64,000 nt of DNA from Armatimonadota bacterium (GTDB lineage: Bacteria; Armatimonadota; Chthonomonadetes; Chthonomonadales; Chthonomonadaceae), in the NCBI GenBank assembly GCA_028871815.1, contig JAGWMJ010000002.1:124001-188000 (forward strand), read 5' to 3'. The translations under genes were made by a program, and so were the position numbers. This document shows, piece after piece, positions 23,467-29,269 of this stretch. Below the pieces are notes generated by a model. It did no database searches. It was given only the letters and a program-made list of their open reading frames with translations, and had not been told where the DNA came from. The first letter of the stretch is position 1. The number at the start of each line of letters is the position of its first letter.

Positions 23467-24441
23467 CTACGGCAGCAGCCGGTCCTTCGGGTCCATGGCG
23501 TTTACTTCCTGCGTGGTGCGCAAAACGCCCCAGCTGCGCAGCAGGTCGAGGATCTCCTGCAGACCGTCGGTGCCGACGTCCGACGCGATCTCCGTCTTCC
23601 TCCACACGCCGAACCGCTGACGCGCGCCCGCCCACTGCAGTTCGTGCTCGCGCAGCGCACGGATACCAAGCCATCCTGTCTCGGTGCGGCTCTCGATCAC
23701 CGAGATCACGCGCGCAACCGTTTGCGGAAATTGGTCGATTACAAAATGGTCGTCGTCCTCAGGGAACAGCACGCGGTCGAGATTCAGTTTCCGAAAGTCG
23801 GTCAGCCAAAACCGGGACTTACGAAGATCGACGTTGATCATCTCGTTTGGAGGAAACTCGCCGGGTGGCCAGGCATCGCGCGCGAAGATCACTTCGCGCA
23901 GTTCACCTTCAAAGACGCAATCGATAAAATTGCTGCCCCAAAACTCGACCTTCCTGAGTCGGGTGTTTCTGAAGATGCAGTTGGTAAATGTAGATTTGTG
24001 CGAAAACGCCCGGCGCAGGTCAGCCTGGGTGAAGTCGACATTCACGTACGTGTCGCAGTAGCCGTCCTCCATGGTGCCGAGCGCAGCGCCCCGCATATCG
24101 GCCCCGCGGAAGCTGACGTTCTCGAGGCGCGTGGCCCAGATACGCAGGTCGGCGAGCACACAGTCATCGAATACACAATCCTCGATAATCCCATAGAGGA
24201 AACGCAGGCTTGGCAGGGTGGCCCCGGCGAAGTCAATACTGGTCCAGTGGAATCGCTCGAGTTCCGTGTACCACGTCAGCTCTCCCGCATCAAGCCCTTC
24301 GATCTTCGTGACGTTGACGAGGGAGGGCTCGGCCAGCTTGAGGCCGCGCATATCGAGCCGGCCATTGACGAGTTCCTCCTTCAGTCCGCTGAGGTCCCCA
24401 CCCTTTTTCATCCGCTCCCAGATTGTGAGTTTGCTGTCCAT
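23467..24441 (-). CDS. Pentapeptide-repeat protein A, candidate immunity protein
   Basis: A 324-residue soluble protein. The middle (about 65-215) is a pentapeptide-repeat right-handed beta-helix with A(D/N)LxF-type steps: SIDFAGATLPSLRF, CVFDDCVLADLRIW, NVSFRGADMRGAAL, NVDFTQADLRRAF, NCIFRNTRLRKVEF. The C-terminal 110 residues are helical and end in EVNAMDPKDRLLP. It is a close paralogue of the protein encoded at 27748-28722, especially in the last 150 residues. The position at the 3' side of an Rhs toxin fragment with other immunity-type genes suggests an antitoxin/immunity role. This is inference; pentapeptide proteins have other uses, e.g. DNA mimicry. An inverted repeat lies directly upstream. 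Confidence 0.82.
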   Translation of the reverse strand: MDSKLTIWERMKKGGDLSGLKEELVNGRLDMRGLKLAEPSLVNVTKIEGLDAGELTWYTELERFHWTSIDFAGATLPSLRFLYGIIEDCVFDDCVLADLRIWATRLENVSFRGADMRGAALGTMEDGYCDTYVNVDFTQADLRRAFSHKSTFTNCIFRNTRLRKVEFWGSNFIDCVFEGELREVIFARDAWPPGEFPPNEMINVDLRKSRFWLTDFRKLNLDRVLFPEDDDHFVIDQFPQTVARVISVIESRTETGWLGIRALREHELQWAGARQRFGVWRKTEIASDVGTDGLQEILDLLRSWGVLRTTQEVNAMDPKDRLLP

Positions 24442-24565: not shown

Positions 24566-25222
24566 TCAGACGGCATGGGAGAACGAGTAATCTTCCGGTG
24601 CGAGAACCACAACTCCGGTCAAGCCGGCCTCGGCCATGCCCTCCACGAATCGGCGGCTTACCAGAGTGGTGGATGCTAGGCCGCGCGCAGCGAAAATGTC
24701 CGCGCCATTCCACGAACCCGCCTGAAGCACGACCCTGTCGATCGCCTTGGTGCGCCGGCGACCGTAGGCGCACGGCACCGCCGGTCGAACGGCGCCGGAT
24801 GCCTCATCGTCGAGGTTGGCGCCCAATCTAGTTTTCCACACGTTGCCGTACTCGGGCAGCTCAACTTGCAGACTCTCGGGCTTCTTTCGACGCACACTTG
24901 CGATATGCGCTGGCGGATCCCGGTGCACGATGCCGGTCCACCCTCCTTTGTCGTAGAGTTCCAGCGCGGGCCGCGAGAGCATAAGATCGAAGCCGTGGCC
25001 GAGCAGAAAGTCGGGGAATACGCGGCCACGCAGGCTGAGATTCTGAGGCGGCAGCCACCGCCGCAGGCCCATGCCGATTCCGCACACGGGGCACCCCTCG
25101 TACAGGCCGCTGACCCCATAACTCTTCGGTTTCTCGGCCTCGCCCCAACCGTATTTGCTGCCGAACAGTAGTTTCCCCTAGTCGATTACGTAGAAGTCCG
25201 GCGTCGTGTTATTACGTACCAT
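24566..25222 (-). pseudogene. CXXCG-motif immunity-type gene broken by in-frame TAG
   Basis: Reading leftward, ATG 25222 has AAGGA upstream and encodes MVRNNTTPDFYVID, then TAG (25180-25178), then continues in the same frame as GKLLFGSKYGWGEAEKPKSY. After that come a zinc-type CPVCG motif, CRIG-like residues and a 170-residue domain ending in FVEGMAEAGLTGVVVLAPED. The end and the CXXCG element resemble the double-CXXCG/Imm11-like immunity proteins of polymorphic toxin systems (family assignment tentative). The second motif is degenerate (CAYG). The continuous frame across the stop argues for a recent nonsense mutation. A shorter product from GTG 25087 is possible but would lack the first cysteine region context. 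Confidence 0.68.
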
Positions 25223-25430
25223 TGCTACTTTTCCTTCACGGTGCTCCAGGGACCTTGTACCCCGGAAAGCGCCATTACACGTCAGGGCGGGAACATATCT
25301 CTCTGAGAAGGGCCCGGACTTCGTCCGGCGCTGCCGACTGGTGGTTGAATCGTACCAGATGTTTTCAGCGCGGACTCCGAGGCGCATGCAGGAGCGGCGC
25401 CACCTGCAACGCAGCCCGCGAACGCCACGC

Positions 25431-26591
25431 CTATAAAGCGCGGGCAAACGCCTTCAACAGGCCGTCGCCGTACTCCTCGTCCTTGATATGGATGGCTCCG
25501 GTTCCGGCCGACGGGTTCAGATCGAGGTAGAACTCCAGCCGGTCGTTGACGGATGCCTTCATGCGGATCCAGGGATCGGTTCGTTCGTCCAGCGCCTCCC
25601 GCGTGTTGAGCACGACCAGATCGAACTTCAGCGGCCGCTTTCGCGCCGCCGGCCCGACACTCACACCGGCCTCCAGCTCATTCGCGAGCGCGGAAAGGAG
25701 CGCGGAAGCATCGCCGTCGCCTTCGGCGAGCAGCCAGCCCGTGCCGGCTGCAAAGGGCGAAAGCTCAAGCCTCGGCTTGAAAGCCAGCTCCAGCCGGAAG
25801 CGAGCTGTTCGACTTATCGTGCTGTGTGTGCAGAGCCAGGTCTGCGCGTCAGCCGTGGCGGCGCCATCCGGTTGGATTGCGAAGAGTACGGGGCCATCCG
25901 GCACGGCATCCGCCTCGCTGTCGCCCAGCGAGCCGGGCGGGTGAGCCCGATCTATTTTGGCGATCGCCTTGCGGGCGACACGACGGATCTCGGAATCATG
26001 GTGGTGCAGAAGGGGCTCGATGAGCGGGCGCGCCTTCACAGACTTCAGCTTGCCAAGGGCCTCGACCGTGCAATACAGTACGCTCGGATCCGACAGGGAC
26101 TCGATCAGCATCGCCTCGGCACGCAGATCCTTCACCTTCCCGAGCCAAAGTACGATCATCGCGCGGCTGTACCCGTTGCTGCGATCGCCCGCAATGGCCA
26201 GCAGTTGTTCAAACGCCGACTGGTCAGCGACTAGTTCAATGGCGTTTCCAACTGACCACTTATAGCCGTCGTCATTGTTGGGCCACGTCAAGAACTCGCG
26301 AATGAGCGGCTGGATCACCGCGGTGCGTGCCCATGGGACGGAGAGTGCGCTGAGGATAGACCGCCTAATGTTGAGCTCCGGGAATAGCGGAAGCCATTTG
26401 AGCAGTATCGGTATTGCGGCGTCGTAGCGGATGCCGCTCGTTCGCAGCCCGGCCAACGTGGCATGGTTGATCCCTGCCGCGCGGAGTTCGGCAAATACGG
26501 GGGACATGGCTAGATCGTATTGCGCCCTGTTCTCCTGCAGTCTCCGTTCGATAAGCTCGCTGACGAGCGGCTCGATTTCGTTTTTCCGCAT
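25431..26591 (-). CDS. HEAT-repeat protein, candidate immunity to the adjacent Rhs nuclease
   Basis: A 386-residue soluble protein. Residues about 55-215 are HEAT-type helical pairs (AIPILLKWLPLFPELNIRRS, LSDPSVLYCTVEALGKLKSV, ARPLIEPLLHHHDSEIRRVA). The C-terminal 150 residues are a separate beta-rich domain (WLCTHSTISRTARFRLEL ... KFDLVVLNTREALDER) ending GDGLLKAFARAL. Start ATG 26591 with GGAG at 7 nt. It lies 51 bp downstream of the Tox-REase-7 domain in the same direction, exactly where immunity genes sit, and HEAT-type immunity proteins are known for polymorphic toxins. A relic of its last 13 codons occurs at 27613-27651, showing that the module was once duplicated. The immunity role is inferred from position. 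Confidence 0.82.
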   Translation of the reverse strand: MRKNEIEPLVSELIERRLQENRAQYDLAMSPVFAELRAAGINHATLAGLRTSGIRYDAAIPILLKWLPLFPELNIRRSILSALSVPWARTAVIQPLIREFLTWPNNDDGYKWSVGNAIELVADQSAFEQLLAIAGDRSNGYSRAMIVLWLGKVKDLRAEAMLIESLSDPSVLYCTVEALGKLKSVKARPLIEPLLHHHDSEIRRVARKAIAKIDRAHPPGSLGDSEADAVPDGPVLFAIQPDGAATADAQTWLCTHSTISRTARFRLELAFKPRLELSPFAAGTGWLLAEGDGDASALLSALANELEAGVSVGPAARKRPLKFDLVVLNTREALDERTDPWIRMKASVNDRLEFYLDLNPSAGTGAIHIKDEEYGDGLLKAFARAL

Positions 26592-26642
26592 TCGGTGGCT
26601 CCTGTTGCGCAGCCGGTCGATTTGTGGCCGGTCCGCCTCCGG

Positions 26643-27536
26643 TCAGGGAATGACGCGGCGCACCACGATCTTCCCGGCACGCTCCATAGCTTGAAGAGCG
26701 GGCGACAGAACCGTGCCCTTGCCGCCGCGAATGTACAGGCGGAGAGTGTAGTTGTTGTCCACCGCCCAGGCATAGTAGTCTTGCAGTTGTCTCGTGTAGC
26801 TCAGGCTCTTGACATTCTTGACCTCTCCGATCACCTTCGCGACATGGTCCAGTTCATCCGGGATACGGTGGCTCGCCCAACTGGGCAGTGTGATCCACTC
26901 GGTGTTTTTCACGATACCCGCTGCGGCCTCGCCAACTTGGCCCAGCCAGCGCACACGCGCCATGCCGGTGAGGCCGGCCCCGGCCAGCCGCTCGGCCCGT
27001 GCCGCCCGGGCTGCATTGATCGCTGCACCGGCGGCTTCAAACGCCTTGTCTTGCAGACCCCAGAGCGCGGCTTACCGGCCGATTGTGGCGAGAACCACGG
27101 AACCGCCGTAGCCTGATTGATGCGCGTAGTGCCGGTTTGTATAGTGGCCGCAGCTTAGCGCGTGGGCGGTAGCGGCAAGCCCTGTCTTGATGCCCTCCAA
27201 AATAACGTGTGGGGTGAATTCGAAACCCCAGATCGTCCACCCCGGCCCGAGACCCAGCGGGTCAAACGCGTTGACCGGGTCATCGCCGCAGTACTCGTAG
27301 AGGTTTATGCCGCCGTCCCACAGCGTGGGATCGCGTGTCAGCCAGATGCCGTTTGCGGGGTCGTAGTAGCGGAGGCCGCAGAGGATGAGCGCGGGGAAGG
27401 GCGACTGAAGAATCGGGCCGTACCGGGTGGGTCCGGTCTGGGCCGTCACCAGCCAGTCGGTGTAACACCCAAACTGGCCGTCAAAGGCAACAGGATCGGG
27501 GCGGCGAAATGGCGCGGCTGCAGCACCGCCGCAACG
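26643..27536 (-). pseudogene. Rhs-core fragment with Tox-REase-7-type C-terminal nuclease, split by TAA
   Basis: A leftward frame open from 27536 opens inside an Rhs core: PVAFDGQFGCYTDW, LILCGLRYYDPANGIWLTRD and GGINLYEYCGDDPVNAFDPL are diagnostic of the Rhs-repeat-associated core end. After a linker (FTPHVILEGIKTGLAATAH) a TAA (27074-27072) interrupts the frame. The same frame then continues ALWGLQDKAFEAAGAAINAA into GIVKNTEWITLPSW, RIPDELD and IGEVKNVKSLSYTRQLQDYY. This is a Tox-REase-7-type nuclease with the PD...ExK catalytic pattern intact. The N-terminal thousand or more residues of a normal Rhs protein are absent. So it is an orphan, nonsense-mutated toxin tip; the 106-residue domain from ATG 26963 could still be made alone. 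Confidence 0.85.
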
Positions 27537-27612
27537 TCATGCGGGCCGAAGCGGGCAGGTCGCGGGGATGGGCGCCAATATCAGCGCGGCGGGGCCGGCG
27601 CAATGCGTATGC

Positions 27613-27651
27613 TTACAACGCGCGGGCAAACGCCTTCAACAGGCCGTCGCC
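27613..27651 (-). pseudogene. 13-codon relic of a second HEAT immunity gene
   Basis: Minus-strand codons for GDGLLKAFARAL followed by TAA match the last 12 codons plus stop of the HEAT gene (25431-25469) at 36 of 39 bases. The differences are silent or in the stop codon (TAG versus TAA). Nothing upstream of this patch resembles the HEAT gene. It marks the end of a lost, once-coding paralogue and a recombination joint with the Rhs fragment. Confidence 0.75.
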
Positions 27652-27691
27652 GCCCGGATTCCGATGCGGATGCGGGAACTCTGCCACGACC

Positions 27692-27727
27692 GCGCGGCCG
27701 GCAAGCCCCGCGCGAGCGCGCCAGCCT
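27692..27727. repeat. 36-bp direct repeat, copy 1 (flanks pentapeptide gene B)
   Basis: GCGCGGCCGGCAAGCCCCGC followed by GCGAGCGCGCCAGCCT; identical to 28750-28785 at 35 of 36 positions. It lies 20 bp beyond the stop of pentapeptide gene B. Both copies are open on the minus strand in a frame giving GWRARAGLAGRAV. Confidence 0.8.
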
Positions 27728-27747
27728 TCGCGCGCGCCCATGCCCAC

Positions 27748-28722
27748 CTACGGCAGCAGCCGGTCCTTCGGGTCCATGGCGTTCACCTCTTGCGCGGAGC
27801 GCGGCACGCCCCAGGCTTGGACCCACCCGAGAAATTCGCTCAGGCCGTCCTCACCCACTTCTGCAACGATGTCCTGTTTGCTCCACACACCGAAGCGCTG
27901 TCGCGGCCCGACGCATTTTTGATCCCATTCCAGCAGACCGGCAACCCCCAGCCATCCGGATTCCGTGCGGGCGGCAAGCTGCTCGAGCAGACGATCCACC
28001 GTCTCTGGATATTGGTCGAGGATGATGTGCTCATCGTCCTCGGGAAAGAGCACGCGGTCAAGATTCAGCTTACGGAAGCCGCACATCCTCAACTTAGCCT
28101 TGCGAAGATCGACGTTGATCATCTCGTTTGGTGGGTTCTGGCCGCGGGGCAAGCCGTCGCGGCTGAATATCACCTCGCGCAGCTCTCCTTCAAATACGCA
28201 ATCGGTGAAGTTGCTGCCCCAGAACTCCACCTTTGTCAACCGGGTGTTTCTGAACAGGCAGTTGACAAACACCGTGGAATTGTAGCTGGTGTCTCGGAGG
28301 TCGGCGCCGGTGAAATCCACGTTCCGGTAATATGTACTTCCCTCCGGGCGGGCCGGACCAAGACTCCCGGAAACGACCGCGGATAGAAACCGGCAATCCG
28401 TGCACTGTAACGTCCACACGCGAATGTCGTGGATGTCACACCGGTCAAAAATGCAGTCGGTCAGGGAGCTGTCGAAGAACCTCAGTCTAGGCAGCGTAGC
28501 GCCCGTGAAGTCGAGCCCCCGCCAGGAACCGTTTCGAATGATCGTCGGGCCGCTGAGGACCCGCGCCTCTCCGATTGGTGTTTGGAGCGTTCGGGTTACA
28601 ATCGGCCCAGCCACACTGACCCCGCGCATGTCAATGCGGCCGTCAATCCGGGCGGGGTTGAGCCCATCCAGGCTTTCGCCGCTTACGAGCCTTTTTTTTT
28701 TCTCGCGCTGGATTTCGTTCAT
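27748..28722 (-). CDS. Pentapeptide-repeat protein B, paralogue of A, candidate immunity protein
   Basis: A 324-residue pentapeptide-repeat protein: GLDFTGATLPRLRF, CIFDRCDIHDIRVW, NVDFTGADLRDTSY, NCLFRNTRLTKVEF. The C-terminal region is almost the same as protein A (NEMINVDLRK, FRKLNLDRVLFPEDD, RQRFGVW, EVNAMDPKDRLLP). The N-termini differ more, so the shared part may hold a common function. ATG 28722 is used because it aligns with A; a TTG three codons earlier is the alternative. Codons 7-10 contain a run of ten A (REKKKR), a slippage-prone tract. The gene is bracketed by a 36-bp direct repeat. The immunity role is inferred from neighbours. Confidence 0.82.
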   Translation of the reverse strand: MNEIQREKKKRLVSGESLDGLNPARIDGRIDMRGVSVAGPIVTRTLQTPIGEARVLSGPTIIRNGSWRGLDFTGATLPRLRFFDSSLTDCIFDRCDIHDIRVWTLQCTDCRFLSAVVSGSLGPARPEGSTYYRNVDFTGADLRDTSYNSTVFVNCLFRNTRLTKVEFWGSNFTDCVFEGELREVIFSRDGLPRGQNPPNEMINVDLRKAKLRMCGFRKLNLDRVLFPEDDEHIILDQYPETVDRLLEQLAARTESGWLGVAGLLEWDQKCVGPRQRFGVWSKQDIVAEVGEDGLSEFLGWVQAWGVPRSAQEVNAMDPKDRLLP

Positions 28723-28749
28723 AGCAGGCAACTATCCACGGCGGACACA

Positions 28750-28785
28750 GCGCGGCCGGCAAGCCCCGCTCGAGCGCGCCAGCCT
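28750..28785. repeat. 36-bp direct repeat, copy 2 (flanks pentapeptide gene B)
   Basis: Second copy, 1058 bp from the first, 28 bp upstream of the pentapeptide B start codon. One mismatch (T for G at the twentieth base). With copy 1 it frames the gene as a discrete cassette. Confidence 0.8.
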
Positions 28786-29269
28786 GCCTTGCAAAAAAAC
28801 AGGCTCTTTTTCACGCTCGTCCTTGAGGGTTGACCGAATCTGCGCAAGCGTGGCAAGAACTGGAACGTAATGTAGGGGATACTTGGCAGTCGTTTGCGGG
28901 TGCTTGCGAACGTGGACGATGGAGTACTGCGAACGCTCATAGGCGTTGTGGCTGCGGTTGGGAACCGCACGGCCCCGCATGACTTGAGGCGAATCCCAAT
29001 GGTCGCCGTGATCGTGACCACGAGCGGCACAAAGTCACGACGCAGGTGCGTTGCGCATAAGCAGGCGCACCTCGCGATCCGCCTGGACCGGCTGAAAATG
29101 CGCCCGCCGACACAAATCCAAATCACCGGCGTATAGTGGGAACGTATTGGCGCAAACCACCAGATTGAAGCTCAGCTAATCGCTCGCCGGCCATGAATCT
29201 GCGGTCGTCGGGTTATCTGCGCCGCGGTCGCGGGAAGAATCGTCACCGACTGATCGGAAAGCGATCCGA
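28786..29269. other. 484-bp gap with possible decayed toxin tip
   Basis: No sure gene. On the minus strand a frame free of stops runs from 29034 to 28732. It contains GHDHGDHWDSPQV, then GRAVPNRSHNAYERSQYSIV and KYPLHYVPVLATLAQIRSTL. The composition is protein-like, but there is no good start and upstream the frame is closed by TGA. Its place directly before an immunity-type gene makes a degraded Rhs C-terminal tip plausible. I do not recognise the fold. Confidence 0.35.

Follow-up and report, generated by a model that had tools for sequence, protein, structure and literature searches.

The window, meaning the whole stretch of 64,000 nucleotides that was analysed, carries an orphan Rhs tip on its minus strand at 26643-27536, in which the end of an Rhs core is followed in a single frame by a nuclease toxin domain. 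Sequence and translation confirm the layout given in the first-pass annotation, with one internal stop, the TAA at 27074-27072, splitting an otherwise open frame. The Rhs N-terminal delivery part is absent, as that annotation had also described: the frame does not continue beyond its 5′ end, and the DNA upstream holds no body of an rhs gene. The tip and its neighbours comprise the following features, all on the minus strand.

23467..24441, minus: pentapeptide-repeat protein, paralogue of 27748-28731 (PF00805; repeats D1 and D2)
24566..25447, minus: double-CXXCG/Imm11-like immunity gene with an in-frame stop at 25180-25178 (family scan, copy comparison)
25431..26591, minus: HEAT-repeat protein of 386 aa, predicted cognate immunity protein (PF13646, E 6.7e-11; pairing in relatives)
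26599..26603, minus: Shine-Dalgarno AGGAG of the HEAT gene, spacing 7 to the ATG (start-site scan)
26643..26963, minus: 106-aa ORF from ATG 26963, containing the entire toxin domain, without a Shine-Dalgarno match (ORF list, start-site scan)
26643..27071, minus: linker and Tox-REase-7 nuclease domain (PF15649 match, motifs)
27072..27074, minus: in-frame TAA between core and toxin domain (sequence, translation; a sense codon in the copy on contig C14)
27075..27536, minus: truncated 3′ end of an Rhs core, open frame (TIGR03696 match, translation)
27611..27652, minus: 42-nt remnant, a 3′-terminal piece of a second HEAT gene (repeat D3, 93% identical to 25429-25470)
27748..28731, minus: pentapeptide-repeat protein, paralogue of 23467-24441 (PF00805; repeats D1 and D2)

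Family assignment and gene neighbourhood

Profile searches assign both parts of the frame to the families that the first-pass annotation had named. The core end (27075-27536) matches TIGR03696 with 50.6 bits (cut-off 32.5; E 2e-13) over model positions 30-76 of 76, that is, the core end only; a genome-wide search located this match at 27249-27389, and GTG 27449 is the sole start codon ahead of it. The segment past the stop (26643-27071) matches Pfam Tox-REase-7 (PF15649) with 68.9 bits (cut-off 25; E 4.6e-19), the domain match spanning 26700-26942. Both matches are far beyond chance and lie in one frame, joining an Rhs core fragment to a variable C-terminal toxin. Zhang et al. 2012 (PMC3482391) give GxxxE, IxD, ExK and Q as the Tox-REase-7 motif set, and all four motifs are kept here, as GQVGE, IPD, EVK and the Q of RQLQD, in agreement with the catalytic pattern first read from the letters. 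The predicted structure of the domain has a mean pLDDT of 58.6 (low confidence), with residues 1-44 unreliable; its strand-strand-helix-strand order fits the restriction-endonuclease fold. Among solved structures, the search returned only a coat protein, at a level expected by chance (E 0.047).

Directly downstream of the toxin, the HEAT gene begins 51 nt past the toxin stop. Its product carries an additional C-terminal region of about 170 aa (window 25431-25950) with no Pfam match; this region is missing in related HEAT proteins and is common to the paralogue on contigs C14 and C21. The adjoining Imm11-like gene has a counterpart at contig C1:495k (L051) that is open where the window has its 25180-25178 stop. 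Upstream of the tip, the remnant at 27611-27652 marks a former tandem unit. Since this remnant and a pentapeptide-repeat gene occupy the upstream side, removal of the TAA would not restore a full-length rhs gene, an outcome that the first-pass annotation had allowed for. The pentapeptide-repeat paralogues, of about 325 aa and ending in MDPKDRLLP, lie within Rhs tip arrays, and two more are found at C1:495k; they may represent a further immunity type, and pentapeptide proteins go unmentioned in the available part of the PMC3482391 text. Rfam and tRNA scans of the window returned nothing.

The same toxin and immunity families are also paired in other genomes. In six of six related loci from public genomes, belonging to Armatimonadota (two labelled Chthonomonas), one Oscillospiraceae and Bryobacter, a HEAT gene directly follows the toxin. 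Five of these loci also have an Rhs core or Rhs-like frame ahead of the toxin; the sixth (L091) is a fragment near a contig end. The pairing thus occurs in three phyla, Armatimonadota, Bacillota and Acidobacteriota, and HEAT repeats are given as an immunity type for Tox-REase-7 by Zhang et al. 2012 (PMC3482391). This conservation across genomes indicates that the HEAT neighbour is not accidental, in line with the relevance already attributed to it. Among 291 Armatimonadota genomes, 17 contain the Tox-REase-7 domain; three carry it in long open frames (1315, 1598 and 1885 aa), open orphan tips occur in G201 (three times) and G029, the G194 tip runs off a contig end, and frame-broken tips are found in G030, G047 (two), G097, G005 and G102.

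Copies, divergence and stops within the genome

The 3.68-Mb assembly (22 contigs), which belongs to Armatimonadota and has its nearest matches in Chthonomonadales, contains 47 Rhs-core matches, none of them inside an open frame longer than 542 aa. Most lie in head-to-tail arrays of orphan tips with a small number of core types, for example at C1:713009-716872, C9:146999-153052 and C2:292347-296394. C5:176k holds an Rhs frame of 1061 aa whose N terminus is Tat-like and whose core type differs from that of the window tip. No full-length parent with the window core type was found in the assembly, where this type occurs only three times, always as an orphan; several contigs end inside Rhs cores, so a full-length parent may be missing from the assembly. 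In enterobacterial loci, orphan modules are usually linked to a full-length main rhs gene whose core they share, but this is not a strict requirement.

A second orphan Tox-REase-7 tip lies on contig C14. It is 94% identical to the window tip over 856 nt, free of stops and followed by the same HEAT neighbour, which is cut at the contig end; the 3′ part of that gene starts contig C21, so that C14 and C21 are probably neighbours. The surroundings occur once more at C1:495k, but there the tip is gone and the match ends within the first bases of the core. One stretch of about 28 nt at the beginning of the core end, window positions 27470-27498, contains both the start of the C14 match and the end of the C1:495k match, which suggests a repeated recombination point. 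Elsewhere in the genome, five tips of one core type (C9:152825, C12:75925, C2:292347, C1:297394 and C10:36552) have an identical 5′ boundary, a stop followed by IMITLVSISY..., that includes an ATG. The five tips thus seem to have a duplication or recombination boundary in common, and possibly a start as well.

The window tip and its C14 copy differ at 58 bases over 283 codons, plus an in-frame indel, and 3.4% of random changes in the tip sequence create a stop; at this rate, each branch should acquire about one stop in the absence of selection. Past the stop, 20 of 141 residues differ between the copies, and the chance that all seven motif residues escape change is 0.33 for 20 changes and 0.59 for half that number on one branch. 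Neither the stop nor the kept active site is therefore surprising, and the first-pass view that retention of the catalytic residues was unexpected does not hold.

Over the whole copy pair, dN/dS is 0.34, with too few nonsynonymous changes for neutrality (p 2e-4). This result is driven by the part before the stop, core plus linker (dN/dS 0.13, p 9e-5); in the toxin domain, dN/dS is 0.49 and the nonsynonymous fraction is 0.61 against 0.75 expected (p 0.07), while the N-terminal part of the HEAT gene, at 0.73 (p 0.18), is indistinguishable from neutral. These ratios indicate that the window and C14 copies had a shared constrained ancestry, and selection on the toxin domain may have lasted until recently or may continue. 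Divergence is also patchy: dS is 0.07 in the linker and 0.21 in the toxin domain, and the HEAT N terminus is divergent, with the rest of the gene near identical. Such a pattern suggests gene conversion and weakens any dating. The first-pass proposal that the stop is a recent mutation gains weak support from the dN/dS of the pair as a whole, although the toxin domain on its own reaches just p 0.07.

Interrupted tips recur in this genome. At least four other orphan tips have one in-frame stop past the core with the tail otherwise open. Those at C12:114565 (TGA), C1:713009 (TGA) and C1:714210 (TAA) each have a stop-free paralogue, and those at C16:33151 and C13:172 have a post-core TAG in common. 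In the latter two (L053 and L058), the TAG is followed immediately by an ATG and an open tail of more than 100 aa, an arrangement common by descent. Four further tips (C13:1691, C13:26780, C7:216115 and C2:364138) contain stops within the core, so that at least nine tips among the 47 Rhs-core ends, the window tip included, are broken by stops. A recoded stop was considered and rejected: TAA, TGA and TAG all occur at such places, and the window TAA is a sense codon in the copy.

A probable decayed toxin/immunity module and its alternatives

Taken together, these observations favour, with a probability of roughly 0.8, a decayed orphan Rhs tip/immunity module, part of a store of spare tips on the chromosome, whose toxin was disabled by a nonsense mutation in the linker. 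The displaced module consists of the core end, the Tox-REase-7 toxin and the predicted HEAT immunity gene, and would have been deposited in this store by tandem duplication and recombination; we infer that the nonsense mutation came later. As it stands, the toxin is presumably neither made nor delivered, because gene body and start signal are absent and a stop precedes the nuclease. With the stop in this position, a full-length rhs gene joined to the core end would still yield a product that ends short of the toxin, and the domain could return to use only if recombination took place downstream of the stop, the intact C14 copy being one possible partner. The HEAT gene, which has its own ribosome site, is probably still translatable and may still protect the cell when a matching toxin comes in. 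Two points count against this reading: the bias of the toxin domain toward synonymous change, and the internal expression known for orphan Rhs toxins of Salmonella (PMC7043789).

If the TAA were an error of sequencing or assembly, the window tip would be a normal open orphan tip of the C14 kind, and the only other copy in the genome is indeed open. We consider this very unlikely: the two copies differ at too many sites, and by an indel, for the window sequence to be a collapsed mixture, and comparable stops are present in further tips and in the adjoining immunity gene. Even without the stop, the window tip would still be an orphan tip. The store might, on the other hand, be a live one, in which gene conversion with the intact copy and selection on HEAT keep the module serviceable despite the stop. 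The patchy divergence fits conversion, and core and linker are under strong purifying selection over the copy pair; yet for the HEAT gene (dN/dS 0.73, p 0.18) neutrality is not rejected, and the stop sits in the conserved linker, unremoved by conversion. This reading, which is compatible with decay, is a tentative one that we would put forward as possible rather than probable.

The first-pass annotation had also raised the idea that the nuclease is made from ATG 26963 as a free intracellular protein that needs the neighbouring HEAT protein. With this start or a different internal one, toxin and HEAT would form an Rhs-derived toxin-antitoxin pair. The ORF from this ATG holds all four motifs and the full Tox-REase-7 match, the HEAT immunity gene follows directly, and orphan Rhs tips of Salmonella act as toxin-antitoxin modules through internal promoters and a CTG start (PMC7043789). 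Against this, the start-site scan found no Shine-Dalgarno match at ATG 26963 or at GTG 27449, whereas the HEAT ATG has its AGGAG. No sigma-70-like site was found on the minus strand over 25300-28800, in a scan that carries little weight for this phylum. Frame-broken Tox-REase-7 relatives have no start in common, and in G097 the open part begins past the GxxxE motif. The methionine of ATG 26963 is also present in L087, in which a long Rhs frame runs into the domain, and is therefore no evidence of a start. Stand-alone expression from this ATG thus gained no positive support, and we regard such a pair as improbable. A more specific version, in which the stop itself uncouples the nuclease from its Rhs frame and the domain, made alone at a low level, pairs as an intracellular toxin with the extended HEAT protein, so that nonsense mutations would turn Rhs tips of this bacterium into toxin-antitoxin pairs, appears highly improbable; if true, the tips at C16:33151 and C13:172, with their TAG followed by ATG, would be further cases.

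Relation to known Rhs systems

The decayed-module reading places the window tip among systems that are already described. Orphan modules usually lack translation starts and have immunity genes that look expressible, and in an orphan module of Yersinia pseudotuberculosis IP32953 the rhs sequence that remains is interrupted by an in-frame stop (Poole et al. 2011, PMC3150448). In the study of Koskiniemi et al. 2014 (PMC3967940), an orphan Rhs toxin was deployed only once recombination had fused it to the main rhs gene. Like these rhs-CT/rhsI modules (PMC3150448, PMC3967940), the window element is a displaced core end and tip without start signals, with an immunity gene directly downstream that has its own ribosome site. 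Unlike them, it does not adjoin a full-length rhs gene of the same core type, and its stop lies beyond the core, in the linker ahead of the nuclease.

In Salmonella, orphan Rhs toxins are known to be expressed internally (PMC7043789). The window resembles those type II toxin-antitoxin modules in combining an orphan Rhs tip with a cognate immunity gene, which is a predicted one here, and differs from them in that internal transcription and translation starts were shown there and none was found in the window. Relative to the Tox-REase-7/Imm-HEAT pair as set out in PMC3482391, it shares the PF15649 domain, the four motifs, the position C-terminal to Rhs and the adjoining HEAT gene, and differs in the extra C-terminus of its HEAT protein and in its interrupted toxin frame.

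The window tip leaves the current view of Rhs systems as it is. It extends the list of orphan Rhs modules by a case from Armatimonadota and illustrates how stores of spare tips decay, and the count of stop-broken tips helps to calibrate what share of such a 'silent arsenal' can still be used. By its anatomy and family matches, it is an ordinary case: an orphan Rhs toxin/immunity module of the known class, broken by a stop, in which toxin and neighbour form the familiar Tox-REase-7/HEAT pair.
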